This document shows positions 393-47,312 of a stretch of DNA of 47,312 nt, one piece after another (positions within the stretch are counted from its first letter, which is position 1; each line of letters opens with the position of its first letter). The stretch is from positions 1 to 47,312 of the IMG/VR virus record IMGVR_UViG_3300025929_000023, one strand, 5' to 3'. The DNA comes from a virus. The notes under the pieces were generated by a model that was not told the origin of the DNA, did no database searches, and worked only from the letters and a program-made list of their open reading frames with translations. The position numbers were made by a program, and so were the translations under genes.

Positions 393-640
393 GGAGCAAG
401 CGGGAGTTGATCGCAATCCGCGCAGCAGAGAGGCTCGCTGAAGCTCTGGCCAAAGCGAACGGCTCGGATTGCGCTGCCCTACTTCTGACCGTAGCGATCC
501 TGCAGGCGGAAGAGGAACTGGGTTTGGAGCGCGCGAATAACGCAGTCGTGATGTGCCAGCCGCTCAAGGTGATTCTGAACGGGCATGGAGTCGAGATTAC
601 GCCGCGGGGCGACGATGGGCCCAGGAAAGAGAGCGACTAA
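389..640 (+). CDS. Hypothetical protein of the lysis cassette
   Basis: An 83-residue protein that I do not recognise. The start ATG overlaps the previous stop (ATGA), and the stop TAA overlaps the endolysin start (TAATG), which indicates translational coupling. The N-terminal half is predicted helical (RELIAIRAAERLAEALAKAN, then LLLTVAILQAEEELGLERA); the C-terminal tail is polar. The weakly amphipathic hydrophobic stretch around residues 30-40 is too short for a confident membrane segment. Its position directly before the endolysin suggests a lysis accessory role, but nothing in the sequence proves it. Confidence 0.7.
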   Translation: MRSKRELIAIRAAERLAEALAKANGSDCAALLLTVAILQAEEELGLERANNAVVMCQPLKVILNGHGVEITPRGDDGPRKESD

Positions 641-1152
641 TGGCGGACTTTGACGTGGCGTTTAACTGGATGATGGATGCAGAGGACCGCTCGAGGAAGT
701 ACGCCGTGGTTCCCGACTATCCGCCCGGCTCCCATGCCATCTCAGGAATCAATTCGAGCAGCTTTCCGGGTGCATATCAGGCCATTGCTGCCTTGCCTCA
801 ATCGACGCGCGGGCCAGCGATCGAGAACTTCTACCGCACGAGTTTCTGGAACCAGTGGTTTTCGCAACTCACATCTGACGAACTGGCAAAGCGCGTCTTC
901 GACATGGCTGTTAACGGAGGGCCTGGAACTGCGGTCAAGCTGCTTCAGGAAGCCATCGGAGATTGCGGGCAGACCGTATCGATCGATGGGAAGTGGGGCC
1001 CGAACACGGTAGCCGCGGCCAACGCCTGCACTGAATCAGAGATTGTTCTGGCATTCAAGGCGGCACGCGCGCAGCGCTATAGAGACATTGTCGAGCGGAA
1101 CCCCGCTGAATCCGGATTCCTTGATGCTTGGCTGACCAGGGCGGCAGCCTGA
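640..1152 (+). CDS. GH108-type endolysin (N-acetylmuramidase-like)
   Basis: The 170-residue product fits glycoside hydrolase family 108 (ZliS-like) lysozymes, which cut the glycan backbone of peptidoglycan. The start MADFDVAFNWMMDAE places Glu15 where the family has its catalytic glutamate. A YRTSFW block follows, and then the C-terminal peptidoglycan-binding part with VFDMAVNGGP, a run of LQEAIGDCG and DGKWGPNT. The family's usual PGGxTxxGI stretch after the glutamate is replaced by PPGSHAISGI, so the active-site loop is divergent. Start ATG 640 overlaps the previous stop (TAATG) and follows AGGAAAGAGAG, a good ribosome binding site. There is no signal peptide, so export needs a holin. Confidence 0.8.
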   Translation: MADFDVAFNWMMDAEDRSRKYAVVPDYPPGSHAISGINSSSFPGAYQAIAALPQSTRGPAIENFYRTSFWNQWFSQLTSDELAKRVFDMAVNGGPGTAVKLLQEAIGDCGQTVSIDGKWGPNTVAAANACTESEIVLAFKAARAQRYRDIVERNPAESGFLDAWLTRAAA

Positions 1153-2199: not shown

Positions 2200-2216
2200 A
2201 AACATTGGAGAAAGCC

Positions 2217-28978: not shown

Positions 28979-31900
28979 GTGGCGACAGTTGACCAGACTT
29001 CCATCGACGTGCCGCTGTCCCTATTTTCCTCTCTGAATACGGAGCTTTCGCCTCCCGACCTGCCAGAAGGAATTAGCCCGGACAATGGCGACGTGGTGTA
29101 TCTTCCTGGCTCTGTCTCTACGAGGCCGGGCACCAGCCGCGTTTTTGTTTCCGACCTTCGCGCGACGACACGGATTGCGTATGAAAAGAGTTACGTTCAG
29201 CCCACCGGGGTTCCGCAGAACCTCTATCTGACCAGCGACGGGCGGCTTTACGTTGAATACGTCGCGATTACTCCGAACGTGGCCACGCTGATCTATACGT
29301 CGACAGCGTCCATGGCTTCCTCGGTCACAGCGTTTGGGCGCGAATACATTGCACTGTCGGACGGCAAGCACGGCGCGGACATTCCTCTCCAGTGGGATGG
29401 GAAACAGCTTACCCGGGTAACGCAGGACGGGCCCGGCATTGCTCCTTCGGTTAGAAGCATTGCTCTTCCCTCAGTGCAGATGGCGGTCAACACTTCGCCT
29501 CTCACTGGTGTGATTCGGGCGACTCCGGTAAATCCGACGACCGTAGGGCCTCCGGGGCATTCCTATGTGCTTTACATGGCCCTGTTTGTCCAGGTGGTTT
29601 CGAGCTCTGGAATTGTGACGGGGCAAAGGGTCACGATCGCAGGAAACACGTTCTGGAACGGGACTTTCACCGTTCAGACGGTTGTTGATTCGACGCACGT
29701 GCAGTTGTGGAATTCGACCACGCTGAACACAGTAGGAACCAATGGCGTGATGACGATCGGCGCGGCTACAACGCTGGTCCGGACCAACAACTCAGTAGCC
29801 TGCGCAACAGTTTCAGCACACAACCTGCAAGTCGGTTATCAGGCGCAAATCTCAGGCATTCCTGCTTCGGTTGTTGGAACTATCGCAACCATCGTTCTGA
29901 ACAACAGCGACCAGCCCGGCGTGGCCATCGTGACGACTTCTGCACCGCACGGATTATTGCCAAACAACATCATCAATATCTCAGGCGTCAATCCGGCTTC
30001 GGTTGGGGGAGGGATCACCAATATAGCACTTTCGGGCGATGTAGTAACAGTCACCACGGCAAGCGCGCATGGGTTGCAGATCGGATCAGTCGTCAACGTC
30101 ACCCCGGTTACGAATTCAAAACTCTCTGGCCAGTGGTTAGTGACCACCGTTCCCACAACGACGAAGTTTACTTACGCCTTCATCGATACCGACATTCCTT
30201 CAGGCGCCGATACCGGCACAGTGACCTATGTCTGGCCGCTCGCAAACGTCAATCCGGAACTAAATTATTTCACCGTTCTGACCGCTCCAACCGCAACGTC
30301 CTTCACGATCGGGCTGAGTTATACGGATGGATCGTGGACAGGCGGAACCATCACCTTTGCGTGGGATGGGATCTTCTACGTTACCGCGGTCCTTTCTGCA
30401 ACGACCTTCACCTATCAGCAGTACGGGCCGGATGCCTCTACCACGGCAGTAGGAACTGTCACTCCATACGGACAAGCCACTCCAGGCATTCATCAGGCTC
30501 AGCAATGCTTTCTCCTGAACTCGGGAGCCATCACCGCGCCGGGGCCTCCGTCGACATTCGTCATGAATGGCGGGCAGTACCTTTCCGTCACGGATTTGGC
30601 CATAGGATCATCCAATGTGGCCGGGCGCATCCTGCTTTTTACGGGGGCAGGCGGCGCTTATTTTTTCTACATTCCGCAGCCCGCACAGGTGAATGGTTTA
30701 ACCGTTTCGACTTCGACACAGATCAACGACAATACGACGACTTCAGTTCTGCTCGACTTCTCCGACGCCACGCTCTACGCAGCAACCGCCTGTTCGATTC
30801 CGGGCAATAATCTCGCTGCGCAAGTTGTTCTAGGTCCGTGCGCAGGCTTCTTTACCTACGCTTCACGTTTGCAAGCGTGGGGCGAATACAACAAGGTCCA
30901 GAACTTCCTGAACATGGGCTTTGAAGGCGGCTACGCACCATCCAATCCCAATCTCCCTCTGGGCTGGACGGTCGGAGCCTCGGGATCGGGAGGAACTCTA
31001 GCCCCGACGATCATTCCCGGGTTTACGTATCAAGTTACCGCAGCGGCCGCGGGGAATTTCGGGGAACTCTTTCAGAATGCCTACCAGGATGCGTATGGAA
31101 CTCCGATTCTGCTCGCGAATACGCAATACTCCGCGCGCTTCCTGACACGAACTGTTTCGGGCTCGGGAAGCCTGGTTTTCACGATCTCTTCGGCGTCGAC
31201 GGGATTTATCAGCACCGCAACGATTGCCTTGGGTGGTCCGGTCGGGGATTGGGATTTGCTCCCTCTAACTTTACCTACCCCGGCCTCGATCCCACAGGAC
31301 ATGATCATCGATTTCTACATCGTGGCCAATGTCGGAGGCGTGGTTGCGCAGATTGACGAAATCGAGCTGATTTATACCGATCAGCCCTACTTGGATCACC
31401 AGGAAAGAATCAGCTACGTCGACAACCCGGAAGGCTTTGATGGATTGACGGGAGTGCTAGGCCCTGAAGACGATCTGACACCCATCATGAACCACGGCGT
31501 GCTTCGGAACACGCTTTACATCGTCACCGGGAATGCAGTCCACGAGACCAACGACAACGGCTCGACAGAGCCGAGCGGCTGGAATGTTGAGGAAGTCGAC
31601 GACGAATGTGGGGCCTGGTCGATTGCTTCGGTAGCAAGAAATCCGCAGGGAATCGGCTCAGCCGGAAAAGGCTTCATGGCATGGAGCGGGCCGGATGGAG
31701 CGCATGTCTTTACCGGCAGAAATCCGGAGAAGTGCTCGCAGGAAATCCAGTCTCTCTGGAATGCGATGGATACTTCGAATGCTCAGTTGGCCTGGACCAA
31801 GAATGACCAGATCAATAAAAGGCTTTACTTCGGGGTTCCGCTATCGGTCCCGGTTCCTCCACCTCCGCACACCATCACTGTGATGCAGGTTCTGGTCCTC

Positions 31901-32527
31901 GATTACAGAAATCTTTCGACCGATCAGATTGGGTCGTTGCCTCCAGTCCGGATTTCGTTTACCGGCAAGATGATTGCTTCCGATCTGACGCGGAAATGGA
32001 CCAAGTGGACGATTAACGCCTTCTGCGGCGAGATCATGTACCGCTCAGCCACAGACATGGAAATGACGTTCGGAGGCACGACATCAGCAAACAACGCGCA
32101 GGCCTGGACGCTCGATAGCGGAAAGTTCTCCGACGACGACACCGCGACAGAGATCATTCCGGCCTACTACACGACTTACTTTTTCGTCGGTCATGAGCAA
32201 GAGCAAGCTCTGCAGCTCGGATCGCACAGAAAGCAGTACGACTATCTGACGATGTTTGTGCCGGGCATCGGAACCATTGCCGCTACGCCGTTGCTTTGCT
32301 CCCTTTCGAACTCTCTACCGCCCACTCCGAACATCGCGCTTGATTCGAATCCCGGCAAAGACATGGAAGTCGATGTTAATGCAATTACCAGCCGTTGCGC
32401 GTTCCGCATCTCCGCAACGCCTTTTCTCGGGCAGACAGACAGTTATTTCAGCCTGCAAAAGCTAGTCGTGAACATGAAGAAGGCTCCATGGCAGTGGGTG
32501 CGTGGAACCAATTCAGGGAGCGCTTAA
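28979..32527 (+). CDS. Large tail hub/nozzle-like protein with HGL repeats
   Basis: An 1182-residue protein from GTG 28979. The N-terminal 170 residues and the C-terminal 400 (LYIVTGNAVHETNDNG, RKWTKWTINAFCGEIMYRSA) look like the beta-propeller part of podovirus nozzle or P22 gp10-like stabilisation proteins. Between about residues 195 and 500 lie several repeated beta units with the pattern VTTAS.HGL..G..V.I/V.. (for example SAHNLQVGYQAQISG, SAPHGLLPNNIINISG, SAHGLQIGSVVNV). These look like inserted surface domains. It probably closes the portal after packaging and carries spikes. Function from context. Confidence 0.65.
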   Translation: MATVDQTSIDVPLSLFSSLNTELSPPDLPEGISPDNGDVVYLPGSVSTRPGTSRVFVSDLRATTRIAYEKSYVQPTGVPQNLYLTSDGRLYVEYVAITPNVATLIYTSTASMASSVTAFGREYIALSDGKHGADIPLQWDGKQLTRVTQDGPGIAPSVRSIALPSVQMAVNTSPLTGVIRATPVNPTTVGPPGHSYVLYMALFVQVVSSSGIVTGQRVTIAGNTFWNGTFTVQTVVDSTHVQLWNSTTLNTVGTNGVMTIGAATTLVRTNNSVACATVSAHNLQVGYQAQISGIPASVVGTIATIVLNNSDQPGVAIVTTSAPHGLLPNNIINISGVNPASVGGGITNIALSGDVVTVTTASAHGLQIGSVVNVTPVTNSKLSGQWLVTTVPTTTKFTYAFIDTDIPSGADTGTVTYVWPLANVNPELNYFTVLTAPTATSFTIGLSYTDGSWTGGTITFAWDGIFYVTAVLSATTFTYQQYGPDASTTAVGTVTPYGQATPGIHQAQQCFLLNSGAITAPGPPSTFVMNGGQYLSVTDLAIGSSNVAGRILLFTGAGGAYFFYIPQPAQVNGLTVSTSTQINDNTTTSVLLDFSDATLYAATACSIPGNNLAAQVVLGPCAGFFTYASRLQAWGEYNKVQNFLNMGFEGGYAPSNPNLPLGWTVGASGSGGTLAPTIIPGFTYQVTAAAAGNFGELFQNAYQDAYGTPILLANTQYSARFLTRTVSGSGSLVFTISSASTGFISTATIALGGPVGDWDLLPLTLPTPASIPQDMIIDFYIVANVGGVVAQIDEIELIYTDQPYLDHQERISYVDNPEGFDGLTGVLGPEDDLTPIMNHGVLRNTLYIVTGNAVHETNDNGSTEPSGWNVEEVDDECGAWSIASVARNPQGIGSAGKGFMAWSGPDGAHVFTGRNPEKCSQEIQSLWNAMDTSNAQLAWTKNDQINKRLYFGVPLSVPVPPPPHTITVMQVLVLDYRNLSTDQIGSLPPVRISFTGKMIASDLTRKWTKWTINAFCGEIMYRSATDMEMTFGGTTSANNAQAWTLDSGKFSDDDTATEIIPAYYTTYFFVGHEQEQALQLGSHRKQYDYLTMFVPGIGTIAATPLLCSLSNSLPPTPNIALDSNPGKDMEVDVNAITSRCAFRISATPFLGQTDSYFSLQKLVVNMKKAPWQWVRGTNSGSA

Positions 32528-33094: not shown

Positions 33095-33219
33095 TCTCCG
33101 GAGAGCGGACCTAATTCCGGACAAAGTTAGGTCACTGCAATATGCCATGAAAACAAAGGGGTTGCGATCTTATTTTTGTCCGGAATTAATTCCGGACATT
33201 TGCGGACTCTCCGGAGAGT
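33095..33219. repeat. Palindromic hairpin element between tail genes
   Basis: The intergenic interval 33085-33229 contains TCTCCGGAGA (33095-33104), TAATTCCGGACAAA (33112-33125), its exact reverse complement TTTGTCCGGAATTA (33175-33188), a perfect 20-bp palindrome (33178-33197, centre AATT) and the 14-bp palindrome ACTCTCCGGAGAGT (33206-33219). The 14-bp arms could form one long hairpin over a 49-base loop. The order mirrors around the centre, as in a MITE-like or recombination element. The stem at 33112-33188 is not followed by a T-run, so a simple terminator is unlikely. Confidence 0.6.
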
Positions 33220-33229
33220 GGGTGGAGAG

Positions 33230-34180: not shown

Positions 34181-35596
34181 ATGGATTTGGGCACGGACTA
34201 CCTTAATCCCGATGAAGCTCTGAAGCAGGCGGCTCTGGCATGGCGGCCCGGGCAACCTGCCATCGCTCCCTACCAGGCGCAAGGCGCGGCCGCAGGCTTA
34301 AATCTTCCTCCAGTGGGCGGGAAGCTGGGCGCGCCCCCTGCAGAACCTCAGGCGATGCCAGCGGGGAACCCTGTTCAGCTTCCATCTTCTCCGCAGCCAA
34401 AGGTGATTGCACCACGTGGAACAATCCAAGGCGATGAAGCCGAGAGAACGCGCCTGCTGGACACAGGAAGCGGTATCTCCCAGATTTCCAGCAAGATTCA
34501 AAACTCAGGCTTCGGCCAGAATCACCCTCTGCTGTCGAAGATTCTAGGTGGGGCTGCGCAAGGCGTCGCAACACTCGGAGATGTTGGGCTTTCCACGCTC
34601 CTGCCTGCGGCCGCGATCAACCTCCCCGGCACACAATACCACCATCAAGCCCTCGTAAATCATGCCAGCGGTGCTGTCGCACAGGATGAAGCCAATGCGG
34701 AGAAGGAAGCGCAGACGGCACAGGCGACTGCAAATGCCGGACACCTCAACGCGGAAACTCCAGAGATTGCGCCAAACGCGCTGAGTACTCGCAATTATCA
34801 AGGGGCGCAAACCCGTCATCTGAACGATGAATCAGAAGACCTCGAAAACCCACAGCCTACCTACTCAATCCACGACACCGAAGATGGGCCGTTGTTTGTT
34901 AATAACGAGACCGGCACAGCGCAGCACCTCTCTGTTGACGGAGTCCCAGTAGGCCCGAAGCTGAAGCTTACCCAATCGCAACCGATCATGGGTCCGGATA
35001 ACAAACCGCATACCTACATGATCGACGAAAAGGGAAACAAGGTTGCTGATCTGGGCGTGCACTACGAACGGCCCCAAGTTACCAACAACTTCGAAAATCG
35101 CGAAGGGGATAAGGGGCGCGCGCTTCTCGACAAGGCAGAGGCCGCCTACCGTCAGGCGCAGCAAGGCGCAAACGGGATGAAGGCCATGATTGATGACGCT
35201 CTCTCTGGTGGCAAGATGAGCGCTCGCATGCTGCCCCTCGAGGGGGCGCTAGAGATCACGACAGCCAATGGCGTCCATCGCATCAACCGCACAGAAGTGG
35301 ACCAGTATGCAGGCGGCGGCAACGCGTTCGACCGGCTTGCAGGGTTGCTTCAGGGCACTACTTCTGGTGTCCCATTCACACCCGAAATCTTAAAAAGTAT
35401 GAAACACCTTACCGACATTCAGGAACGCGGTGCATACGACACATACAAAGGAGCTTTTGATAGCGCAACCAAGCGCTATGGCCTGAAGGATGAGCAGCCC
35501 TTGAACGGGCCAGCCCCAGAAACGCGTGAATATAACGGCCACACCTACGAGAAGGGAGCAGACGGACAATGGCACCTCCAGCAAAAGCCGCAGTAA
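34181..35596 (+). CDS. Probable internal virion (ejection) protein
   Basis: A 471-residue protein, Ala/Gln/Pro-rich, helical and without Cys. It contains a GGAAQGVATLGDVGLSTLLP stretch, a long Ala/Gln helix (ANAEKEAQTAQATANAGHLN) and a Pro/Gly-rich loop region, ending DGQWHLQQKPQ. Position and composition suggest the middle one of three ejection proteins (compare P22 gp20). The last 28 bases overlap the next gene. Confidence 0.5.
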   Translation: MDLGTDYLNPDEALKQAALAWRPGQPAIAPYQAQGAAAGLNLPPVGGKLGAPPAEPQAMPAGNPVQLPSSPQPKVIAPRGTIQGDEAERTRLLDTGSGISQISSKIQNSGFGQNHPLLSKILGGAAQGVATLGDVGLSTLLPAAAINLPGTQYHHQALVNHASGAVAQDEANAEKEAQTAQATANAGHLNAETPEIAPNALSTRNYQGAQTRHLNDESEDLENPQPTYSIHDTEDGPLFVNNETGTAQHLSVDGVPVGPKLKLTQSQPIMGPDNKPHTYMIDEKGNKVADLGVHYERPQVTNNFENREGDKGRALLDKAEAAYRQAQQGANGMKAMIDDALSGGKMSARMLPLEGALEITTANGVHRINRTEVDQYAGGGNAFDRLAGLLQGTTSGVPFTPEILKSMKHLTDIQERGAYDTYKGAFDSATKRYGLKDEQPLNGPAPETREYNGHTYEKGADGQWHLQQKPQ

Positions 35597-36900
35597 AGCC
35601 ACCCGATACACTCCCGGCAGGTTTCTTCGATGATCATCAACCTGCAAACGGGTCTGCTCCATCAACATTGCCGCCTGATTTCTTCGATAAGGAAGACTCT
35701 ACATCACAGCAACAACCATCGCTCATCCAGCGCGGCCAGAACTACTTCGACAAGTTGAGTGAGGTTCAGCCTCACCACATGCCGACAAGTCTCAAGGATC
35801 TCGGCGGCGAAGCGCTCAAGGGAATCGGAAACATTGGCGGCGCTGGAATCGGATTGCTCACCCCGCTCGTGCATCCGATCGATACAGCAAAGTCAATCAT
35901 TGGCACAGAAGCCAACCCTTTCGGCGGCTTGAAAGAAGCCAAAGATTTGGTCTCTCACCCGCTAGAAACAGCGGAAACGCTCGTTGGGCAGGGCGGCGCG
36001 GCTGAACTTGCCGGGGCAGGATTGAAGCCTATTGCCGGGCGCACCGGGGAATTTCTCAAGAACAAGGGCGCGCAGAACATCGACCGCACGGCTGGCTCAC
36101 TGCAGGCTGATTTTAAGCACGGCGCAGAGCCGGGGCGCGGCTATTTGGAGGGCGGTGGAACTCCTGCCATCAGCATGAAAAGCCTCTCCAAGAAAGCTGG
36201 GGTGGTTGCTCAAAACGCGGGCCAAGGCTTGCAAAAGGCATATACAGCCGCAGATGCAACCGGCACGAAAATCCCCGCAGAGAGTGTGCTCAAGACGAGC
36301 TTAGAGCCGATTGATGAATTGCGCTCGCAGGCTGAAGGTTTCGGCGGATCAGGTATTCCAAGCACCGTCGCAGAGTACGAAAAGAGGCTTTATCCACCAA
36401 TCGCCGCAGCCGAAGCGCGCGGAGGATATACCCCGACAGAACTCTGGAATGACCGGAAGAACATGGCGGCGAATACTCGTTGGAACGATCCGACCATGTT
36501 TGATCTGAACTCCGTGCGCCAGCAGACAGTTGGAGGCATCGGCGGGTTATTGACCGATGCAGTACCGGAGTCCAAAAAGCTCAATCGCATTTACCAGGGT
36601 TCCAGCAATCTATCCGCCCGCGCTGGCCTGAGAGCACAGACCGGAAGTACGCCCCTTTCGACCCTAGGTCGCAAGGGAGCCGAAATGCTGATTGGCAACA
36701 GCGCAGCCGGTCCGCTTGGAGCTGTAGCGCCGCTGGTAATCGATTCCCCGCTCGTTAAGACGGGCGCTGGATACGGGATGTTCAAAGCGGGCCAATCACT
36801 TCCAGCGGTCGCGGCGGGAGCGCCACCCGTCCTCGCTGGGGCCGGGACCCTGCGCCGGATCAACAAAAAACAGCCAGACGAGGAACCCGATGAGAAGTAG
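35569..36900 (+). CDS. Probable internal virion (ejection) protein
   Basis: A 443-residue protein beginning with two copies of a short motif, TLPAGFFDD and TLPPDFFDK (about residues 14-42). Glycine-rich amphipathic segments follow (GEALKGIGNIGGAGIGLLTP, AAELAGAGLKPIAG) and a hydrophobic Gly/Ala/Pro-rich end (PAVAAGAPPVLAGAG). Such features suit proteins that enter or cross the host membrane during DNA ejection. It overlaps both neighbours. Function from context only. Confidence 0.5.
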   Translation: MAPPAKAAVKPPDTLPAGFFDDHQPANGSAPSTLPPDFFDKEDSTSQQQPSLIQRGQNYFDKLSEVQPHHMPTSLKDLGGEALKGIGNIGGAGIGLLTPLVHPIDTAKSIIGTEANPFGGLKEAKDLVSHPLETAETLVGQGGAAELAGAGLKPIAGRTGEFLKNKGAQNIDRTAGSLQADFKHGAEPGRGYLEGGGTPAISMKSLSKKAGVVAQNAGQGLQKAYTAADATGTKIPAESVLKTSLEPIDELRSQAEGFGGSGIPSTVAEYEKRLYPPIAAAEARGGYTPTELWNDRKNMAANTRWNDPTMFDLNSVRQQTVGGIGGLLTDAVPESKKLNRIYQGSSNLSARAGLRAQTGSTPLSTLGRKGAEMLIGNSAAGPLGAVAPLVIDSPLVKTGAGYGMFKAGQSLPAVAAGAPPVLAGAGTLRRINKKQPDEEPDEK

Positions 36901-39900
36901 AGCCACAACCCACATGCGCCACAGTGTACGCCTGATTACGCCGGTGTTGGCAATATTTTTCTTCGCGTTGCCGGTCTTCGGCCAAGCCGTCCGCATCGAT
37001 ATTCCCCTCCAGACCTACGGCCCCAACGTGCCCACCTCAGGCGGACCGCAGCCTCAGGCGCTCTGGATTGCCAACGCGGTTGTCTCGCTCTGCACGCACC
37101 CCTCCGCTTCAATCGGAGCCTGCCAAAGCGCACCGATTACCACTTACACCGATGCGACCGGCGGAACGTCCTGCCCGGCCAATAAGCAACTCGTCCAGTT
37201 ACCCGGTACGACTTGCACCGCCAAAGCAGGGACGGCGGGAAATGTGGGTTTCTGGTACTCAGGCGGACTCATTGATTACTGGGTGCAGGGGCCTTACGGA
37301 ACGTACGGGCCTTACTCCATCTCAGGCGGAAATGGCGGCGGGGGAGGGGGAAGCCCGTTTCCTCCATCCTTCTCGGTGCAGGCGGCCAACTCCCCGACTA
37401 CCGGGTTTGTGAGCGATCCGAACATCAAGGTCGACACCACGAACCACATCCTGATTGCGCAGAACGAAAACGGCTCGAACAACAAGGTCATCAACGTAAC
37501 TGCGCCTCCCTACAACGCCACGGGCGATTGCTCGACCGACGACCACAACGCGATCCAGGCAGCGATCAACGCAGCCTATGCAACAAGCCCTTCAGCGCAA
37601 GTCTATTTCCCCAAGCCTCCAGGCGGATGCTATCTCACCAGCACCCTGACATGGCTCGGAGTCTCGCTCGATGGCCCTCCTTCGGGACAGGGCTATGCGA
37701 CGGGCGGAATGATTGCGCAGCTCCGCTCTAAGCCCGGGCAAGACCTCTTCAACGTTCCCGATGTGGACGATGTCGCGATCCAGAATCCTCTGACCGGCTT
37801 CACGATTAGCAACCTTGACCTCGTGGTTGATGACTCGGTCGACGCTTCGGCGTCGCATCCCTTCCGCTTAGTCGGACGCACCTGCACCGATGTGACTGCA
37901 ACTGCAAGCAGTGCAGCCATCACTTCGGCGACGAATCACTGCGTATTCAGCGCCGGTGACGTAGGGCAGGCAATCACGGTTGCGGGCGCGGGCGCAGCGG
38001 GCGCCACGCTGACAACGACCATCGCCTCGGTGCAATCTCTAACGCAAGCGACCCTCACGACGCCGGCCTCGACCACGGTCACCAATGCGACCACGTACAT
38101 CTCGGTTGCAGGAATCAGCGCGACCCAATCTGTTGGGAACTGCGCTCTCGCGTGGGATAACCGGGACGCCAACACCGCGAACTGGCTCACGCCGCAGTCT
38201 TCAGGGAACGGGATGCTCTACGCGGTGTGGCGCGATGTGAACGTGCGCAGCCTCTCGACGCACAACCTGAATCACTCGTGCGGATTCTTCCTCCAGGGCC
38301 AAGCGAGTCCTTACGGAACGGTCTGGGACAACGTCAACATTCAGCGCCTTGCTTTCGGGTTCCTCGAGGTTCCGTTTGTCCAGAACAGCGGCGCGGGCGC
38401 AGGAATTGGGGGAGATTTCAATAAGTGGATTCACGCCAAGTGGGACTCCACTTTTCCGTTCATCTTCTATGACGGCAATCAAAGCGCTTTGCAGGAAATT
38501 CAGATCGGCTCAACTAATGGCGTGCAGATTTTAGATGCATGGACGCCGGTCGAATATCAAGCCTCTCTCTGGAACATCGAAATCCCAGAAATCGAGCTTG
38601 CAACCAACATCGCTTTTCGTCTCGAGGGATTCGACCACACCGTCATCAACAGCGAAATCGGAGATGCCAGCGGAACTACCTTCTGGGATGCGAACGATAG
38701 CCGATGCATTAGCTGCATTGCCATCGGCACGCTGAATGTGAACGGGTATCTGAACGACATTACGCTGGTCGACGCCATTGACCAGGTCACGATCAACAAC
38801 AACGGATTGAACGATGTTCACGGTAGGCGCATGTACAACCCCTTCGGTGGGGTGCAGTCTTCCCGCCAGACCGCTCTCTCCTTTCAGCGCCCATGGGATG
38901 TAGCGACCAAGACGGCTGATTTCCTCTTTCGCGGGTTAGGCGCAACGCCCTACAACTCCGACCTCGACCTCTGGTACTGGCCGCAGGACATGCTTACCAA
39001 CGGTACGGGGAGCGGAGTGGTCACCGCCGATACTGCGTCAGAATCCGGCTACAACATCAGCGTCGGCAACTCGGGAAACATTACTTACATGACCAGTTTC
39101 AACGCCCTTGGTAATGGAGCGTGGGCGATTGGAACCGCAACTATCCCGGCTGCCAAGGTCAACCTGATTCTGCGTCTCAAGTGCGACACCCCACAAAATA
39201 TCGCCGTGACGTTCAACGTGGTCAACAACATCACGCACATCGGAACTACGGTTGCGAATAACGCTTCCTATGCCTGCGGATCAACCTATTCGACACTCGT
39301 TCTCGCGGCTGATTTGAGCAGCTTCAACAGCAATTACAGTCCCTCAATCAACATGAATGTCTCACCCGGCCTGGTACGAGTGGCGTGGATGTCTTTGCAG
39401 CCGTGGGACGGGTCTTCCTTTACCACCGGCACTGCGGAGGCAGGTACGGTTCAGGCCGATACGCAGGCGACGGTTGGCAAGCTGACCTCGAGCGGAAACA
39501 TCAACATTGTTCCTCTAGGCAATCCTGCCATCAGCACGGCTGCCCCGGCTGCGACAGGCGGAACGCTCCTTCATTCGACGACCTATTACTACAAGGTCAC
39601 GGCCATCAACGCGTGTGGAGAAAGTCTCTGGACAAATGAGGCCTTTCCGACCACCGGAACCGGGCCTGACACCTACACCATCACGCTCGGATGGGCTCCG
39701 ATCTTCGGCGCAACAGGATACAAGGTCTACGGGCGAGTGGCGACAGTTGAGCAGTTCATCGCCAATGTTTCAGTGTCTCCAACAGCCACAAGCTACAGCT
39801 ACACAGACAACGGCTCAATCACCCCGTCCGGAGCTCTGCCCTCTTCCAACACCACGCAGTGCAATTTCCAGCTTAACGGCGTCAATCTCGTAACGGGCGG

Positions 39901-40858
39901 TGGATTGTCAGGCATGACGGCGGGGCAGGTGCCCATTGCCGCCACGGCATCTACCGTTACCTCGAGCAAGGCGCTCGGATCGGCTGCAAACAACATCCCT
40001 GTGCTCGATGGAAGCGGATTGCTTGCCTCGTCCGAGATTCCGAACAATGCAGCCACCACAACAGGAGATGCAGCGGGGATCACAGGTGGAGTGCTCGGGT
40101 CGGTTCCTTATCAGAGCGCTCCGGGTGTCACGGGATTCGTAGCGCCGAACACGTCTGTAACGATTCTCTGCCTGACGGAACAGGGAACTGGCACGGTAGG
40201 CGCTGCTCCGGTATTTGGCTCTTGTTCAGGCTCAACGTCAGTTGCGTTCTCAGCAATCACCGGATCGACCAATACAAGCGCTGCGATGTTAGTTGGAACC
40301 GGGGCAAGCCTCGACTTCACCGGCTCTGGAACCATCGACGCGAACAAGATCAACGCTGCTGTGGTCCCGACATCGGCCACCATCGTAGGGACGAATGGGA
40401 GCAAGCAGCTTGTAGACGCCTCATCAGCAACGCTGACCAACAACACAAGCGGTAACGCTGCTACAGCAACCGCGCTTGCCGCGGCTCCTTTCAACTGCGC
40501 TACAGGTCTAGCTCCGACAGGTGTCGACGCCTCTGGCATAGCTAGAAACTGCACAGCCTACGTGCAGACCATCTGTAGCGGACAAATCGCACTGAGCACT
40601 GCCCCGATCCCTTTGGGTGGAACCTTCGACAACACCGCTGCGTGCACCAACGCGCTGACGACAGATAGCGTGATCTATACGCCCGCTTCTAATGCAAGCC
40701 TCGTTAACGGTTATGCACCGACACCGATAGGCAATCTACTGACGTTATATCCATGGGTGTCTGCTGGAGTTCTCCACATTACCCAAGGCAACAACGCCGG
40801 CAATGCCGGAACAATCACACCGGGAGCGATCACGGTCAATTATCACGTTTTCAGGTAA
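36890..40858 (+). CDS. Secreted-type tailspike: pectate-lyase-like beta-helix with FN3 domain
   Basis: A 1322-residue protein. It begins MRSRATTHMRHSVRLITPVL, and a Sec-type signal sequence follows: basic n-region, hydrophobic core ITPVLAIFFFALPVFG, cleavage likely near VFGQA. A Pectate_lyase_3-type unit starts near residue 210 (GDCSTDDHNAIQAAINAAY, then VYFP, GGCYLTSTL). An FN3-like domain lies at about 878-990 (TTYYYKVTAINACGESLW). The C-terminal part is Thr/Ala/Ser-rich tail-fibre-like sequence. There are more than 20 Cys, many closely paired. Start ATG 36890 has GAGGAA six bases upstream. It probably binds or degrades surface polysaccharide. The signal peptide is unusual for a tailspike. 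Confidence 0.75.
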   Translation: MRSRATTHMRHSVRLITPVLAIFFFALPVFGQAVRIDIPLQTYGPNVPTSGGPQPQALWIANAVVSLCTHPSASIGACQSAPITTYTDATGGTSCPANKQLVQLPGTTCTAKAGTAGNVGFWYSGGLIDYWVQGPYGTYGPYSISGGNGGGGGGSPFPPSFSVQAANSPTTGFVSDPNIKVDTTNHILIAQNENGSNNKVINVTAPPYNATGDCSTDDHNAIQAAINAAYATSPSAQVYFPKPPGGCYLTSTLTWLGVSLDGPPSGQGYATGGMIAQLRSKPGQDLFNVPDVDDVAIQNPLTGFTISNLDLVVDDSVDASASHPFRLVGRTCTDVTATASSAAITSATNHCVFSAGDVGQAITVAGAGAAGATLTTTIASVQSLTQATLTTPASTTVTNATTYISVAGISATQSVGNCALAWDNRDANTANWLTPQSSGNGMLYAVWRDVNVRSLSTHNLNHSCGFFLQGQASPYGTVWDNVNIQRLAFGFLEVPFVQNSGAGAGIGGDFNKWIHAKWDSTFPFIFYDGNQSALQEIQIGSTNGVQILDAWTPVEYQASLWNIEIPEIELATNIAFRLEGFDHTVINSEIGDASGTTFWDANDSRCISCIAIGTLNVNGYLNDITLVDAIDQVTINNNGLNDVHGRRMYNPFGGVQSSRQTALSFQRPWDVATKTADFLFRGLGATPYNSDLDLWYWPQDMLTNGTGSGVVTADTASESGYNISVGNSGNITYMTSFNALGNGAWAIGTATIPAAKVNLILRLKCDTPQNIAVTFNVVNNITHIGTTVANNASYACGSTYSTLVLAADLSSFNSNYSPSINMNVSPGLVRVAWMSLQPWDGSSFTTGTAEAGTVQADTQATVGKLTSSGNINIVPLGNPAISTAAPAATGGTLLHSTTYYYKVTAINACGESLWTNEAFPTTGTGPDTYTITLGWAPIFGATGYKVYGRVATVEQFIANVSVSPTATSYSYTDNGSITPSGALPSSNTTQCNFQLNGVNLVTGGGLSGMTAGQVPIAATASTVTSSKALGSAANNIPVLDGSGLLASSEIPNNAATTTGDAAGITGGVLGSVPYQSAPGVTGFVAPNTSVTILCLTEQGTGTVGAAPVFGSCSGSTSVAFSAITGSTNTSAAMLVGTGASLDFTGSGTIDANKINAAVVPTSATIVGTNGSKQLVDASSATLTNNTSGNAATATALAAAPFNCATGLAPTGVDASGIARNCTAYVQTICSGQIALSTAPIPLGGTFDNTAACTNALTTDSVIYTPASNASLVNGYAPTPIGNLLTLYPWVSAGVLHITQGNNAGNAGTITPGAITVNYHVFR

Positions 40859-40867
40859 GGAGACAAC

Positions 40868-41704
40868 ATGGCGCAAGCATCCTCCGCTTCACCTTCATCT
40901 CGCACCGCAGGCCGGTTCGTTGCTGCGAACTATGGCCAATGGACGCTGAGTGTCTTCAGCTTTCCTACCGGAACGGGATCGTTGCAGTTCTCGGTTGTCT
41001 CGCCTCTTGCCGTGTTGACGGACGGGCGCCAGATCATTCCGTTTAACACCAATGCTCCCATCTTTGTGGGCACCGAACAGGTCACTCCTTCGGCGGTGGT
41101 TCGCTCGTCTTCACAGCCCGGGGGCTACCTGATCACTGCTACTTTCTCAAACGCTCATGGCGCAGGCGAGACGGTGCGCTCGGCAACCTTCGGGTTGCAG
41201 GAAGGGCTGAACGATGCGAATACCTCAGGTGGAGGCGCGGTTGTCATTGACTCGGCCTGGGTCGCTCTAGGCGGAACGACTGCTATCAAGAACGCTGCGA
41301 CCATACCCAGCGGCACAGGGATTGAGGATGTGCGCACCGGAGCGGCTTCGGGAAGCGGAGGAACGGTAACCAGCGTTTCAGTTGTAACAGCAAACGGCTT
41401 CTCAGGCACCGTAGCGACCGCCACGACAACCCCTGCCATTACGTTAGCTGCGACTACCCAAGCTACTTCGGACAACACAACCAAAGTGGCAACCACAGCC
41501 TTCGTTCACAACGCGATTACCGGCGCGCCTTTGGTCCTTTACAGCGCGGCCGGCACGCCCCTTCCTGCCGCATCAGGGCCGCTTACAGGGACCGTTCTGG
41601 TGGTCAGTGATGCGACCACGCCTTCCTATCTCGGGGCCTATGTGAGTGGCGGGGCAATCGTCTGCAGTGTGATTTGCACAGGCTCGGGCTGGGTTACGTG
41701 CTGA
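40868..41704 (+). CDS. Tail fibre-like protein with the head/tail shared domain
   Basis: A 278-residue protein. Residues about 70-140 contain TATFSNAHGAGE and GLQEGLNDANTSGGG, shared with the product at 20005. Further on, GGTVTSVSVVTANGFSGTVA and the run TTPAITLAATTQATSDNTTK are typical of phage tail-fibre shafts. There is no signal peptide, unlike its neighbours on both sides, and Cys occur only at the C-terminus (IVCSVICTGSGWVTC). AAGGAGACAAC ribosome site. Confidence 0.65.
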   Translation: MAQASSASPSSRTAGRFVAANYGQWTLSVFSFPTGTGSLQFSVVSPLAVLTDGRQIIPFNTNAPIFVGTEQVTPSAVVRSSSQPGGYLITATFSNAHGAGETVRSATFGLQEGLNDANTSGGGAVVIDSAWVALGGTTAIKNAATIPSGTGIEDVRTGAASGSGGTVTSVSVVTANGFSGTVATATTTPAITLAATTQATSDNTTKVATTAFVHNAITGAPLVLYSAAGTPLPAASGPLTGTVLVVSDATTPSYLGAYVSGGAIVCSVICTGSGWVTC

Positions 41705-41714
41705 AAGAGGAAAC

Positions 41715-44402
41715 ATGCGAAAGTTACTAGCTCTTCTGTTTCTCGGATTCTCGGCAGTGGCGATGGCGCAGACCTCCATCGTTACCGTGTCGTCTGCTCC
41801 TTCGGGAGCCTGTTCCGGCAACCCCGCGATTGAGTTTGTGCTGCTCACAGGCGCGCAATATGTGTGCAACACCACATGGCAGTTGGTGCCTGGCGGCGGA
41901 ATCACTGGTTTGAATCCGGCTGTCTTTCTCACGTACCCCGTCTACCCTCCCGGCACGGTCACTTCGACGCCTTCAGGTTCAGGCGGAACACTCGCAGCCG
42001 GAAGCTACTTCTTTGAGGTGACGGCGCTCAACGGCACCGGCGAGACGATTGCAAGCCCTGAAGCAACAACGACCACTTCAGGAACGACAAGCTCAGTTGC
42101 GCTGGCATGGACAGCGATCACCGGAGCAACGAGTTATCGCGTTTACTGGTCAACGACAACCGGAACAGAGGGCCACTATTTCACCACGGCCACCAACTCC
42201 TACACCATGACGGCGACGGGCGGAACGGCAGTGGCTCCTCCGCTCCAAAACACCACAGTTGACCTCGGTGCAGAAATCAACGCGGCAAATACAACACTGG
42301 TAGCGGCGGGCGGGGGTACCATCGTGCTGCCGAACATCTCTGCCAACATCGCAACGACAGCGACGATCAACGGCTCCTATGTGAGCATCCAAGGCTGGGG
42401 CATCAGCGTTAGTAATCTAACCTGCACAGTGGCGGGAGACTGCCTTGTTATCAATGTCACAGCAGTTCAGCCCGCAGGCTTTCCAGCGAGCGTGGCATCG
42501 GGATTCCACATCACAGGCAACGCAGCGAGTGGGCAGATTCCGATTCATACAAACAATCTGCGTGGATACACGATCGACAACGTTCATCTGGAAGGAAGCG
42601 GAACATCATCTCCCTGCCTGCTTCTCGAAAACACCAATGCATGGGTCGAGGAAAACACCATCAGCAGGTTCTACACCGGAAGCACTTGCTTTGCCGGAAT
42701 TGAACTCCTTCAGGATAACGGTCTCGCGACACGGTCTTTCGGGTACAACAACATCGATCTGTTTGCGAACGTGACCTCAGGACATTACGGAATCTACATC
42801 CCGAATAACGGCGCTTCTCCAACCGGCCAACTCTACAACGGCTCAATCAGCATCCGTGGCGATGCTGCAGGCGGAACGCTCTTCTACAACCACTCGATGA
42901 CGGTTGGTGATGTCAGCTATACCCCTGAAGACATCAACATGAATGTCGAAGGCAGCAGCGGGCAGATGTGGGACGTTACCGCCTTCCCGTTCTACTTCAC
43001 TAGTTCCAAGGGGTTATATGCTTCGTCTGTCCCGCAAGGTACATCGTATTCGAGCAGCTTCTACGGCCCGACAGGCTCTTACTTCACTGCAAGCTCCTAC
43101 GACAACTCTTTCACTGGAATTCCCGCGCTGTCTGCGAAATGCCAGAACATAACCTCGACATCTGCCTGCAACTTGTTCATCGGGCGCGATTCCAGCAACT
43201 ACGACAACGGCATCCTCGCGTTCTATTACAACGGAGCAAGTTCGACAGGCAACGAACTGTTCGCGAAAGTCTTCAACGCCCCCAATATTGGATGGGCGAT
43301 TGATGGGACGGGTGGGTTCTATTTGCCGGGCGTGCTAAGTGCAGGTGCCCTCGCCACAGATGGCACTGGGAAAGTCATTCCCGGAACATCGTTCTCTAAC
43401 CCCATGACAACTCTGGGTGACACGATCTACGGCGGCGCGTCGGGAGCAGCAACCAGACTCGCAGGGCCTACAACGACAGGCCACACATTTGCGCTCACCG
43501 ATGTCCCGAGCGGTGGGTTGGCGGTTGCGCCGACATGGACGGACCTTGCAACTTATCTTGCATCTCCTCCTGCCATCGGAGGCACGGCGGCCGCGGCCGG
43601 AACATTCTCTGCACTGACCGATTCGGCACTGACTTCTGGAAACTGCGTCCAAGCCACTACTGGCGGATTGCTGACCACTACGGGGTCTGCGTGCGGCACA
43701 TCGTCAGGCACCGTGACGACTACAGGAAGCCCTGCATCGGGTGACATTGCAGCGTTCTCTGGCGCATCCTCAATCACCACCGCTACAGCAACTCAAGTCA
43801 ACACGCTCATCAAGACGCTGACCGGATGCAACACGGCATCGAATGTCTACACCCCTCAGGGAGCAGATTGTGTTGCCCAAACAGGCGGCTATCCGACCGC
43901 GGAAGTCCATACCGCCTCGACATCGGCTTCGCTGGCCTTCACAACTTGCATTACCAGTTCCAATCGCGATTACCAGTTGCGCTTCTCTGACCTTCTGCCC
44001 GCGACCACTTCACAGAACCTCTTTGTGCAGGTGTCCACCGATGGCGGCTCGACATGGGACACCACCAGCGGCCACTACATCAACGGTGCTATGCAGGTTG
44101 GAGTCAATCAGTCTCTTGCTCCGACAGGGTTCTCGCAGAGCAATGGAATCGGCTTTTATGTCGGAGGGTTTGCGTCAAGCTCCACCGGCGTAGTGAACGG
44201 GACGATGACCCTTTTCAACCTGTTCAACAGCACCGCATCGAAGCACGCGACATTCCTGATGTACGGAGATGGAAGCCCGAACAGCGTTGCTGATACGGGC
44301 GGTGGCGTCTACACGCAGACAGCCGCTGTCAATGCGATTCGGGTCATCTCGGGAAGCGGAAACCTCACCAGTGGCACCGTGACATGCCAACCGCTTCCGT
44401 AA
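41715..44402 (+). CDS. Secreted-type beta-helix protein with FN3 domain
   Basis: An 895-residue protein. MRKLLALLFLGFSAVAMAQT is a classic Sec signal peptide with cleavage near AMA-QT. An FN3-like domain is at about residues 78-170 (GGTLAAGSYFFEVTALNGTG, GATSYRVYWSTT). The right-handed beta-helix begins near 182 (AAGGGTIVLPNISANIATTA). The C-terminal 165 residues form a separate beta domain (LFVQVSTDGGSTWDTTSGHY). Cys are fairly frequent. It is a probable polysaccharide-binding or depolymerase protein. The strong AGAGGAAAC site and the ten-base gap indicate co-expression with the preceding fibre gene. Confidence 0.75.
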   Translation: MRKLLALLFLGFSAVAMAQTSIVTVSSAPSGACSGNPAIEFVLLTGAQYVCNTTWQLVPGGGITGLNPAVFLTYPVYPPGTVTSTPSGSGGTLAAGSYFFEVTALNGTGETIASPEATTTTSGTTSSVALAWTAITGATSYRVYWSTTTGTEGHYFTTATNSYTMTATGGTAVAPPLQNTTVDLGAEINAANTTLVAAGGGTIVLPNISANIATTATINGSYVSIQGWGISVSNLTCTVAGDCLVINVTAVQPAGFPASVASGFHITGNAASGQIPIHTNNLRGYTIDNVHLEGSGTSSPCLLLENTNAWVEENTISRFYTGSTCFAGIELLQDNGLATRSFGYNNIDLFANVTSGHYGIYIPNNGASPTGQLYNGSISIRGDAAGGTLFYNHSMTVGDVSYTPEDINMNVEGSSGQMWDVTAFPFYFTSSKGLYASSVPQGTSYSSSFYGPTGSYFTASSYDNSFTGIPALSAKCQNITSTSACNLFIGRDSSNYDNGILAFYYNGASSTGNELFAKVFNAPNIGWAIDGTGGFYLPGVLSAGALATDGTGKVIPGTSFSNPMTTLGDTIYGGASGAATRLAGPTTTGHTFALTDVPSGGLAVAPTWTDLATYLASPPAIGGTAAAAGTFSALTDSALTSGNCVQATTGGLLTTTGSACGTSSGTVTTTGSPASGDIAAFSGASSITTATATQVNTLIKTLTGCNTASNVYTPQGADCVAQTGGYPTAEVHTASTSASLAFTTCITSSNRDYQLRFSDLLPATTSQNLFVQVSTDGGSTWDTTSGHYINGAMQVGVNQSLAPTGFSQSNGIGFYVGGFASSSTGVVNGTMTLFNLFNSTASKHATFLMYGDGSPNSVADTGGGVYTQTAAVNAIRVISGSGNLTSGTVTCQPLP

Positions 44403-44410
44403 CCGGGGAA

Positions 44411-44512
44411 CTAGTGAATGGATAGCCAAATGACATACGCGAGAATGCCAATCACGACGATTGCCCCGAGGACCCAAGGGATCGCTTCTGTGCCCATCGC
44501 ATCTTCAATCAT
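44411..44512 (-). CDS. Possible antisense 33-residue membrane peptide
   Basis: On the minus strand a frame from ATG 44512-44510 to TAG 44413-44411 reads MIEDAMGTEAIPWVLGAIVV and continues IGILAYVIWLSIH: an acidic start and one clean membrane span. A TATACT box lies seven bases before its ATG, the same geometry as the leaderless RHH gene at 3293. There is no clear -35 box or ribosome site. It is antisense to the start of the next gene. Could be chance. Confidence 0.3.
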   Translation of the reverse strand: MIEDAMGTEAIPWVLGAIVVIGILAYVIWLSIH

Positions 44513-46625
44513 GCGGGCCAGTATACTACTCGCCGTCCTCCTTCTGCCTCTACAACTTTTGGGGCAGACGACCGGCATCCTCGCACCCTCCCGCGTGACC
44601 GACTTCAGCTATGCAGGCATCTCCGGAGGAATCCCATCAGCTTCGTGGACCCAGTGCGTCAATACCCAGTGCGCAGCAGTAACCACAGCAGCATGCTCGG
44701 CCACAGCCTCGCAGATGAATGCGGCCCTCCAGAATGCGCCTGACCATACTTACGTCTTGCTCCCCGGAACCGTAGGGACTCCCTGTCATTTCAGCTTCAC
44801 GGCAGCGCAGATCAAGTTCACCAAGGGCAATGTGGCGATTCGAGGCGGAGGTGCGAATGCTACGTTTCTTGCCTTCTCGGGGAATGGCGTCGGCTGCAAC
44901 GGCAATACCTCCGTCTTCTGCGCAGAAGGGGACACCTCGCAATACTGGGGCAGCTACGTCGCGAAGAACTGGCTGACAGGCTTCGCGCAGGGCGCAACGT
45001 CGATCACCTTGAGCGATACAACAGGCCTCACTGCCGGAATGCTCATTGTCCTGAATCAATGCGATACCGGGCGCAGCGGATCTGGATGCTCAGGCACGGA
45101 AACCGACAACGGCAATGCCTTCAACTGCGGCGACCAGTACACCGGAACAGGCTGCTCTCAGTCTGGGCCTGACGGAGGCAACGGAACCCTCTCCCGCTTC
45201 ATGAACGAGACGCACACAGTTCTGTCCGTCTCGGGAACCACCGTGACCCTGGCTGAACCACTCTCTCATCCGAACTGGGCCTTGGGCCAGAGTCCACAGG
45301 CCTGGTACATCGCGCCCATCTCAAACATCGGCATCGAAAACATGTCGATTGACGGCTCTGGTTATTGCGCGAGTCACGTTCCAAGCTGCTCAGATTACGG
45401 CTTCTGGGGTGTCGAGTTTGTGAACGCATCGAACGTCTGGGTAACAGGGACGCGCTGGACGAACAACTACGGCCATATCATTCAACTCTCGGACGTTTCG
45501 CACGCCATCGTGCAATCGAACTACTTCTTTGAAGAACAGTACTCGGACGACATGGGCGTTGCGATCACGAACTCCAGCTTCCTTGAAATCGACAACAACA
45601 TCTTCGAGCAGCAGCTAGTCGGAGTTGTCTGCGAAGGGCCATGCTCGAACACGGTCGTTGCGCATAACCTTTTCATCGGCAACTGCAACCTCCAGTACAA
45701 CGACAGAAACGGAACCTGTTCAGACGGGCTTGGAAGTGCCATACGGCCGCACTCGAACGGCACCGATGAAATGCTGATTGAAGGAAACATCGGCACCCAG
45801 TTGGACATGGACAAGGATCACGGCTCCCACCTCTTCAACACCTTCTATCGAAACTTCCTGACCGGATGGGAGAACTGCGGCATCAACCAAGGCGCTACGC
45901 TCTCTCTCTGCGGCACAGCAGGAGTCAAGGACTTCCTGACTAACACTCTTGTTCTGGCTTCGCTCCAAGGCCGCTATGAAGCAGCGGTGAACAACGTCCT
46001 CGGAACACCGGGCTACCACACGACCTACCAGTACACGACAGGCCTAGATAACCACGCCGTCTATGACGTGGGCGCAAGCTATGGCAGCGCCGGACCAACG
46101 CCTGTACCTGACGATCCGATCGTCGGCACAACTTTGATGCGCTGGTGCAACTGGGATGTGGTTCACGGCTCGGTTCAGTGCAACAACTCAGAGGTTCCGT
46201 CAGGCATCAGCGTTTACCCGAATTCCGTACCCACGGTCTGCACTGCCGGAACTTTGGGCACCTGTCCTGCATCGTTCTATCTTGCTTCGAAGCCTTCATG
46301 GTGGACCAGCGGTGTTCCATATCCCGCGATCGGCTCGGATGTGACGGGCGGCAACATCGGGCAAGTTTCAGGAACGCTCAATACGGCAGGAAAATACAAC
46401 GGCTCTCCTGCGCTTACCGGAAGCGTGTGGGCTGGAAGCTCAGTCTCGGTCGCATGGGGCGGCCACGTCAACGCAAACCCCGCGGCGAATTGCTACTTCA
46501 ACAAAATGGGTGGAGATCCTGCAGGCGCGGGCTCGGCGCTGAATTTCAATGCGAGCGTCTGCTATCCCAGTGGCGGCCCGACTCCAGGGCCTCCCTCAAA
46601 CCTCGACATCATCGTTCTTCAATGA
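44418..46625 (+). CDS. Secreted-type Cys-rich beta-helix protein
   Basis: A 735-residue protein. Starting at ATG 44511 (residue 32) the sequence MRASILLAVLLLPLQLLGQT is a strong signal peptide; 44511 has no ribosome site, while 44418 has a weak one, so the start is uncertain. The mature part has about 30 cysteines, many in close pairs (CVNTQC, CDTGRSGSGC, CASHVPSC, CEGPC). It folds as a right-handed beta-helix (VAIRGGGANATFLAF, ISNIGIENMSIDGSGYC, VQSNYFFEEQYSDDMG). It resembles secreted polysaccharide-acting enzymes. Cysteine content fits disulfide formation outside the cytoplasm. Confidence 0.7.
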   Translation: MDSQMTYARMPITTIAPRTQGIASVPIASSIMRASILLAVLLLPLQLLGQTTGILAPSRVTDFSYAGISGGIPSASWTQCVNTQCAAVTTAACSATASQMNAALQNAPDHTYVLLPGTVGTPCHFSFTAAQIKFTKGNVAIRGGGANATFLAFSGNGVGCNGNTSVFCAEGDTSQYWGSYVAKNWLTGFAQGATSITLSDTTGLTAGMLIVLNQCDTGRSGSGCSGTETDNGNAFNCGDQYTGTGCSQSGPDGGNGTLSRFMNETHTVLSVSGTTVTLAEPLSHPNWALGQSPQAWYIAPISNIGIENMSIDGSGYCASHVPSCSDYGFWGVEFVNASNVWVTGTRWTNNYGHIIQLSDVSHAIVQSNYFFEEQYSDDMGVAITNSSFLEIDNNIFEQQLVGVVCEGPCSNTVVAHNLFIGNCNLQYNDRNGTCSDGLGSAIRPHSNGTDEMLIEGNIGTQLDMDKDHGSHLFNTFYRNFLTGWENCGINQGATLSLCGTAGVKDFLTNTLVLASLQGRYEAAVNNVLGTPGYHTTYQYTTGLDNHAVYDVGASYGSAGPTPVPDDPIVGTTLMRWCNWDVVHGSVQCNNSEVPSGISVYPNSVPTVCTAGTLGTCPASFYLASKPSWWTSGVPYPAIGSDVTGGNIGQVSGTLNTAGKYNGSPALTGSVWAGSSVSVAWGGHVNANPAANCYFNKMGGDPAGAGSALNFNASVCYPSGGPTPGPPSNLDIIVLQ

Positions 46626-46635
46626 AAGGATTTCG

Positions 46636-46989
46636 ATGAAACTCCTCCGCAACCTCATCCTTTCCGGGCTGGCGCTCTCAGCCTGGTACGCGCAAGCCTC
46701 GAGCATTCTGTGGACGTGGACCGCCCCGACCACCGGCGCGACGGCTGTAGCCTACAACGTCTACCAGGCCAATGGCACGTGTGGAAGCACTGGGCTGACT
46801 TACGTCAAGATCGCCTCTGCCGTTTCAACAACAAGTTTCACGCAGACCGCGATTCCGACTGGAACTACCTGCAACTACGTCACAGCAATCTCGGCGGTCG
46901 GAGTGGAGGGACCGCCATCCGCTACCTTTCAATTCGACACTTCAGCACCAGGGGCACCAGGGGCATTCAAAGGGACGTATCAGCCGTAA
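46636..46989 (+). CDS. Small secreted FN3-like protein
   Basis: A 117-residue protein. MKLLRNLILSGLALSAWYAQ is a signal peptide with cleavage near AQA-SS. The mature part is one fibronectin-type-III-like domain (WTWTAPTTGATAVAYNVYQA, TTCNYVTAISAVGVEGPPSA) with two Cys. AAAGGA ribosome site 10 bases after the beta-helix gene. It may be an exported binding module related to the FN3 domains in the two large proteins. Confidence 0.65.
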   Translation: MKLLRNLILSGLALSAWYAQASSILWTWTAPTTGATAVAYNVYQANGTCGSTGLTYVKIASAVSTTSFTQTAIPTGTTCNYVTAISAVGVEGPPSATFQFDTSAPGAPGAFKGTYQP

Positions 46990-47044: not shown

Positions 47045-47266
47045 TTGACTACGAGCGACGGGGAGCTGGCGCGAAAGGTATCAAAAATGTATGTCGACAT
47101 GTACGAAGGTCAGGGCAGGGAAAATCCCCCGATCACTTCACGCCTTGCCTTGCTGGAGGAATCGGTGGACAAAATCAACTCGAATTTAAGCAAGATGGTT
47201 TGGCTTCTGTTGAGCATTCTAGGGGCCGCAGTGGGAAACATCGCGTTACACATCGCAGGCAAATAA
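47045..47266 (+). CDS. Holin-like/XhlA-like membrane protein
   Basis: A 73-residue protein from TTG 47045 with AAAAGGAGAAG upstream. The N-terminal part is hydrophilic, then a short coiled coil (LALLEESVDKINSNLSKM) and a C-terminal membrane segment (VWLLLSILGAAVGNIALHI). This is the layout of XhlA-type haemolysin/holin proteins. It opens the lysis cassette that continues across the origin to base 2009. Its 3' end is repeated, with changes, at bases 1-103. Confidence 0.7.
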   Translation: MTTSDGELARKVSKMYVDMYEGQGRENPPITSRLALLEESVDKINSNLSKMVWLLLSILGAAVGNIALHIAGK

Positions 47267-47312
47267 ATTGGGCCTCAAGTCGTTCAAACGTTGTCCGCAG
47301 TGCGGCTTTCAG
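47164..47312. repeat. Terminal direct repeat (circular overlap, right copy)
   Basis: Right-hand copy of the 149-base overlap; see the left copy at 1-149. This copy agrees in frame with the complete holin-like gene, so it represents the main assembled variant. The left copy carries the alternative bases in its first 23 positions. Confidence 0.9.
47268..47312 (+). CDS. 5' end of the LuxR-type HTH gene (partial)
   Basis: The first 15 codons of the gene complete at 105-392, cut by the end of the window. The TTG start, and the TAA of the holin-like gene just before it, are identical to the left copy. Confidence 0.85.
   Translation, partial: MGLKSFKRCPQCGFQ

Follow-up and report, generated by a model that had tools for sequence, protein, structure and literature searches.

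Tailed phages are taken to assemble entirely within the cytoplasm. In P22 the spikes are the last component to be added, and in vitro they can attach to particles that lack spikes. The filamentous Ff phages offer a case of virion proteins made with cleavable Sec signals, namely pIII and pVIII, the first of which also contains disulfides. To our knowledge, no tailed-phage spike is added from outside the cytoplasm, and in the library searched we came across no earlier account of tail fibres or spikes with signal peptides.

Here we describe putative spike genes with predicted signal peptides in the window, by which we mean the whole 47,312-base stretch of DNA analysed, and in a clade of related phages. 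The clade follows the gene order of P22 and Sf6 (adaptor, nozzle, ejection proteins, spike), and, like the clade proteins, the tailspikes of these two phages have a beta-helix body; their N-terminal virion-binding domain is distantly similar in fold to a domain of the clade proteins. A tailspike of the P22 kind lacks a signal peptide and folds in the cytoplasm; P22 gp9, Sf6 gp14 and T7 gp17 have a signal score of 0 and contain 8, 13 and 3 cysteines, whereas the window spikes carry predicted signals. The Ff phages resemble the clade in having Sec signals on virion proteins, but they assemble at the membrane without lysis, unlike the window clade, which consists of tailed dsDNA phages with capsids, a terminase and an endolysin. 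Lom of lambda (PMC12309495) and similar proteins are encoded, as in the window, by phage signal-peptide genes near the tail genes; in contrast to the clade spikes, Lom is destined for the host membrane, is expressed in lysogens and is not a spike.

The window is one complete virus record. It has a 149-base direct terminal repeat (window 1-149 and 47164-47312), indicating that the genome is probably complete and circularly closed; the match between the two ends is only 97%, so they either derive from slightly divergent copies or contain assembly errors. The phage encodes an integrase, Erf and RecE-like recombination proteins, an O-like replication protein, a terminase, a major capsid protein candidate and a nozzle-like protein. 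Its terminase is only 23-27% identical to those of named-phage relatives, and its nearest relatives are soil-type IMG/VR contigs and Granulicella prophages, from which a Terriglobia bacterium (Acidobacteriota) is most likely the host. The cassette of interest (Table 1) is followed by a small one-TM protein and then, across the joined ends of the record, by the endolysin. Between the nozzle and ejection-type genes lies a small acetyltransferase-like gene, called by eye and without a Pfam match, which recurs across the whole clade (window 33176-33625, L002:7387-7779, L003:7217-7594); genes annotated as acetyltransferase occupy a comparable position in the isolates Tunturi 1 and 3.

Table 1. The signal-bearing cassette of the window and the genes that surround it
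Feature	Position	Strand	Remarks
Tail nozzle-like protein	28979..32527	+	marker for finding relatives
Cys-free ejection-type protein	34181..35596	+	conserved landmark upstream of cassette
Cys-free ejection-type protein	35569..36900	+	directly upstream of putative spike 1
Putative spike 1	36890..40858	+	predicted Sec signal 36890-36982; virion-binding-like N-domain; pectate-lyase-like part; 22 mature Cys
N-terminal domain of putative spike 1, directly after predicted cleavage site	36983..37336	+	two Cys pairs
Fibre-like protein without signal peptide	40868..41704	+	3 Cys (odd)
Putative spike/fibre 2	41715..44402	+	predicted signal 41715-41768; 14 mature Cys
Putative spike 3 (ORF opens at 44418)	44511..46625	+	predicted signal 44511-44564; right-handed beta-helix; 24 mature Cys
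Small FN3-like protein (ORF opens at 46549)	46636..46989	+	predicted signal 46636-46698; 2 Cys
Small one-TM protein, holin/XhlA-like by eye	47045..47266	+	after cassette
Endolysin, GH108 / PG_binding_3, without signal peptide	640..1152	+	downstream of cassette on circular genome

A preliminary description of this DNA had proposed that the genes at 36890, 41715, 44511 and 46636 encode exported proteins. All four open reading frames are present, and all score as bearing Sec signals, with a basic n-region, a hydrophobic h-region and small residues at -3/-1. The predicted signals and cuts are MRSRATTHMRHSVRLITPVLAIFFFALPVFG^QAVRID (36890), MRKLLALLFLGFSAVAMA^QTSIVT (41715), MRASILLAVLLLPLQLLG^QTTGIL (44511) and MKLLRNLILSGLALSAWYAQA^SSILWT (46636). 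These calls come from a home-made scorer of charge, hydrophobic stretch and -3/-1 residues, with a threshold chosen in this analysis and, in a few cases, gene starts picked by eye. Among the structural genes of the window only these four score as signal-bearing; the fibre-like gene at 40868, already described as lacking a signal, scores 0. On the coding strand just one other protein scores high, a transmembrane-like, cysteine-free product of the early region (window 2205-2879) whose N-terminus bears a strong transmembrane segment. The beta-helix body typical of P22-kind tailspikes is present as claimed, with Pfam matches to PF13229 in the 44418 frame (E=7.6e-7) and to PF12708 in the 36890 gene (E=4e-6), and K1-lyase_C and S74 domains occur in relatives; the FN3 assignment of the 46636 gene is weak (E=0.056). 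The proteins had also been called cysteine-rich, which is strongly true of the 44511 product alone (3.5%) and less so of the others (22, 14 and 2 cysteines); even in the former we count 24 cysteines in the mature part and not about 30.

Through the nozzle-like protein we found relatives at 31 viral loci. Downstream of the nozzle-like gene these encode small proteins, two long and nearly cysteine-free proteins that are ejection-type by position, and then the signalled genes. Across 20 loci, 34 of 44 cassette ORFs score at least 3.3, compared with 7 of 278 ORFs elsewhere, and 7.6% of shuffled N-termini pass the signal threshold because several starts are allowed. Seventeen of the 18 spike-bearing loci, the window included, have a gene scoring at least 3, and the remaining one (L024) has a signal evident by eye; L014 and L026 have no signalled gene within the stretch of the locus covered. 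The arrangement that had been suggested as a check in related genomes, signalled spike genes in the same place after cysteine-free ejection-type genes, is thus found at 18 loci including the window. The residue at +1 of the predicted cut is Gln in 27 of 29 signalled genes. Searches for direct relatives of the 41715 and 44418 genes in IMG/VR, and of the latter in GenBank phages as well, gave none. Two loci have a signalled fibre-like gene between the capsid and connector genes, far from the spike cassette (L022:7399-8460, L034:7475-8473).

Signalled genes also occur in isolated phages. In Tunturi 1 (PP887698), a plaque-forming podovirus of Tunturiibacter, signals are predicted on gp12, gp13, gp14, gp16 and gp17, of which gp14 is annotated as tail spike and gp17 as virion structural protein. 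Tunturi 2 repeats this pattern, and in both phages four of the five products have even cysteine numbers. In the siphovirus Tunturi 4, gp113 and gp114 are predicted to carry signals; Tunturi 3 fibres are poor in cysteine and lack signals. Tunturi 1, 2 and 4 (PMC11924767) share with the window signalled spike and tail genes with mostly even cysteine counts, but they have larger genomes (63 and 88 kb) and are unmatched by similarity to the window nozzle or spikes. Weak tblastn matches to Tunturi 2, Serratia and Thermus phages were set aside, that to Tunturi 2 being a chance match in its early region. The main text of the paper on these isolates does not mention signal peptides, and reports Tunturi 1 and 2 as plaque-forming, with no integrase reported (PMC11924767).

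Cysteine parity provides a second line of evidence. Exported bacterial proteins that form disulfides prefer even numbers of cysteines, according to a passage of PMC7678975 (after Dutton 2008). The mature parts are even in 28 of 29 signalled genes, a proportion whose significance is inflated by kinship among the genes, which the parity statistics ignore; the one exception is a Granulicella prophage spike (S156) with 11 cysteines. When the signal is included, the full reading frame is even in only 18 of 29. Ten signals contain one cysteine and all ten of the corresponding mature parts are even, while unsignalled genes with at least two cysteines divide into 66 even and 56 odd. Cysteines make up a median of 1.8% of signalled mature parts versus 0.0% of other virion genes. 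Prophage spikes from other Terriglobia genomes follow the rule (9/9, including that of L086, hand-counted at 16 with the signal cut by eye), as do 6 of 7 signalled proteins of Tunturi 1 and Tunturi 4, giving a pooled count of 43/45; gp17 of Tunturi 1 and of Tunturi 2, with 32 and 34 cysteines, differ by one pair. An even number that emerges only after the predicted cut constitutes indirect evidence that the signal is in fact cleaved in the cell. On these statistics an even mature count is a mark of cleaved, disulfide-bonded exported proteins, and the earlier remark on paired cysteines proves right in a stronger sense than was claimed, since the number is even once the signal is removed. Together with the predicted signals, this parity supports Sec export and disulfide-bearing mature parts.

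The first spike genes have in common a domain of ~115 residues directly after the cleavage site. Here too cysteines come and go largely in pairs, as expected of a disulfide-bonded exported protein: columns 75/92 have both cysteines in 13 sequences and neither in 12, and columns 45/58 both in 18, a single one in 2 and neither in 5. The AlphaFold model of the domain is beta-rich and fairly confident (pLDDT 82). Searched with Foldseek against BFVD, it matched mostly phage spike- and fibre-type proteins, with probabilities up to 1.00, many of them pectate-lyase, chaperone-domain and tailspike proteins. In the PDB, cyanophages Pam1 and Pan3 supplied the top two matches, in both cases parts of the tail, and P22 and Sf6 tail complexes or tailspike head-binding parts came further down the list; all E-values were weak (0.3 to 2.7, best 0.31). 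By sequence, hhalign of the domain profile with P22 gp9 detected no similarity and a PDB search with the domain no real match. The model and its structural neighbours suggest that this is a virion-binding domain.

This N-domain is present in 43 of 299 sampled Terriglobia genomes, and most loci viewed in context were prophages, with nozzle, adaptor or capsid-type genes as neighbours; a profile search of genome contigs with the ejection genes gave no match. L037, a contig with a related phage, belongs to a proteobacterial MAG labelled Betaproteobacteria. In a sample of 274 genomes of the class around this MAG, the domain occurs in one, the MAG itself; either the contig was misbinned or the clade infects a wider range of hosts. 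A siphovirus-type prophage encodes a signalled spike between tape-measure-like (PhageMin_Tail) and tip-like genes (L086:7613-10312 (-)). Two apparently chromosomal Terriglobia proteins combine a signal peptide with the same N-domain and have odd cysteine numbers (L078:7831-10302 (-), L082:7495-10296 (-)); they adjoin glycosyltransferase-type genes, and are possibly a source of, or a derivative from, the phage spikes. Peptidase_S74 was dropped as a phage-only control because many bacterial S74 proteins carry signal peptides, so that the domain alone does not mark a phage; such signalled proteins (L120-L151, L167-L181) come from Terriglobia and from the class sample around a proteobacterial genome.

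A natural swap between Granulicella prophages bears on where the signalled proteins reside. The prophages of Granulicella sp. S156 and G. mallensis X5P3 are 91% identical in the MCP, 93% in the adaptor and 74% in the nozzle. The S156 spike has a predicted signal, and no other spike candidate lies between the ejection-type and lysis genes of this prophage. Its X5P3 counterpart begins, with MSGIRYDG, at the point where the S156 protein would be cut; it has no signal, 1 cysteine overall and 0 in the N-domain, yet the N-terminal parts of the two are homologous (43% identical). A third genome (L047/L084) again has an unsignalled spike with 0 cysteines in the domain. Judging from these alignments, both spikes most likely occupy the same docking site, which requires the S156 spike to reach the virion without its signal.

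We consider it about two-thirds probable that the signalled proteins are true tailspikes of a Terriglobia podovirus with P22-like gene order, exported by Sec, oxidised once in the periplasm and attached to virions at lysis or later. Counting against this reading are the lack of a signal on the 40868 gene, the two prophages that manage without one, the weakness of the PDB matches, the absence of sequence similarity to P22 gp9 and the lack of a known precedent among tailed phages. In an unlikely alternative, the signalled proteins are soluble depolymerases or adhesins that act around the host, off the virion, with an unsignalled protein such as that of 40868 as the real receptor-binding protein. 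Secreted enzymes would have signal peptides and disulfides, could be encoded several to a phage, and would be at home with the apparently chromosomal relatives beside glycosyltransferase-type genes and with bacterial exported S74 proteins. However, the domain after the signal resembles tailspike virion-binding domains, signalled and unsignalled versions fill the same slot on closely related tails, S156 offers no other spike candidate, and the stretch read in relatives such as L006 contains no unsignalled fibre. Free secretion as the main role, one of the options in the preliminary description, is disfavoured by the first two of these points.

It is very unlikely that the signals are leftovers of captured host proteins, now neutral or retained as a membrane-anchoring N-terminal tail on a virion protein. 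The L078 and L082 proteins would provide a source, but signal character is preserved in very divergent phages, Gln is kept at +1, parity is even only without the signal and unsignalled spikes begin at the cleavage point. Dual products are highly improbable: in 16 of 29 genes an in-frame start codon lies close to the cleavage site, and from it an unsignalled cytoplasmic spike could be made while the full frame is exported for another role, whereas 13 of 29 have no suitable internal start, many signal starts are preceded by Shine-Dalgarno-like sequences, and parity and the paired N-domain cysteines fit one oxidised product. Finally, the integrase would suit lysogenic-conversion factors, which had also been proposed, yet this is barely plausible for genes embedded in the late region, with ejection-type genes on one side and lysis genes on the other, and with the same signals found in plaque-forming Tunturi 1 and 2.

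We favour Sec-exported tailspikes and envision the following scenario. The spikes would be made late, from genes that adjoin the lysis genes, would cross the inner membrane, have the signal removed, in nearly all cases just ahead of a Gln, and fold in the oxidising periplasm, where their cysteines would pair; capsids and tail nozzles would meanwhile be assembled in the cytoplasm as usual. After holin and endolysin have opened the cell, mature spikes could encounter these particles and attach by way of the N-terminal domain, a step drawn by analogy with the late-added spikes of P22. Sequence statistics support the signals, their cleavage, disulfide use and the virion-binding-like domain. Of the options raised in the preliminary description, that of late-attached spikes is the one supported; the moment of docking, at lysis or later, and the advantage of export we infer. 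The likeliest benefits are disulfide stability in acidic soil or the avoidance of early self-binding before release.

On balance it seems probable that tailed phages of Acidobacteriota, whether of podovirus or siphovirus type, complete their virions beyond the cytoplasm, with Sec-exported, periplasm-oxidised receptor-binding spikes joining released or releasing particles. Such a split-compartment assembly route has not been described for tailed phages. If it exists, views of assembly order, self-exclusion and spike stability would change, disulfide-rich spikes in acidic soils would be explained, and infectivity would depend on the Sec and disulfide machinery of the host. For structural work, spikes of this kind would best be expressed in an oxidising compartment, and the combination of a signal peptide with an even cysteine count could help to flag receptor-binding genes in soil viromes.
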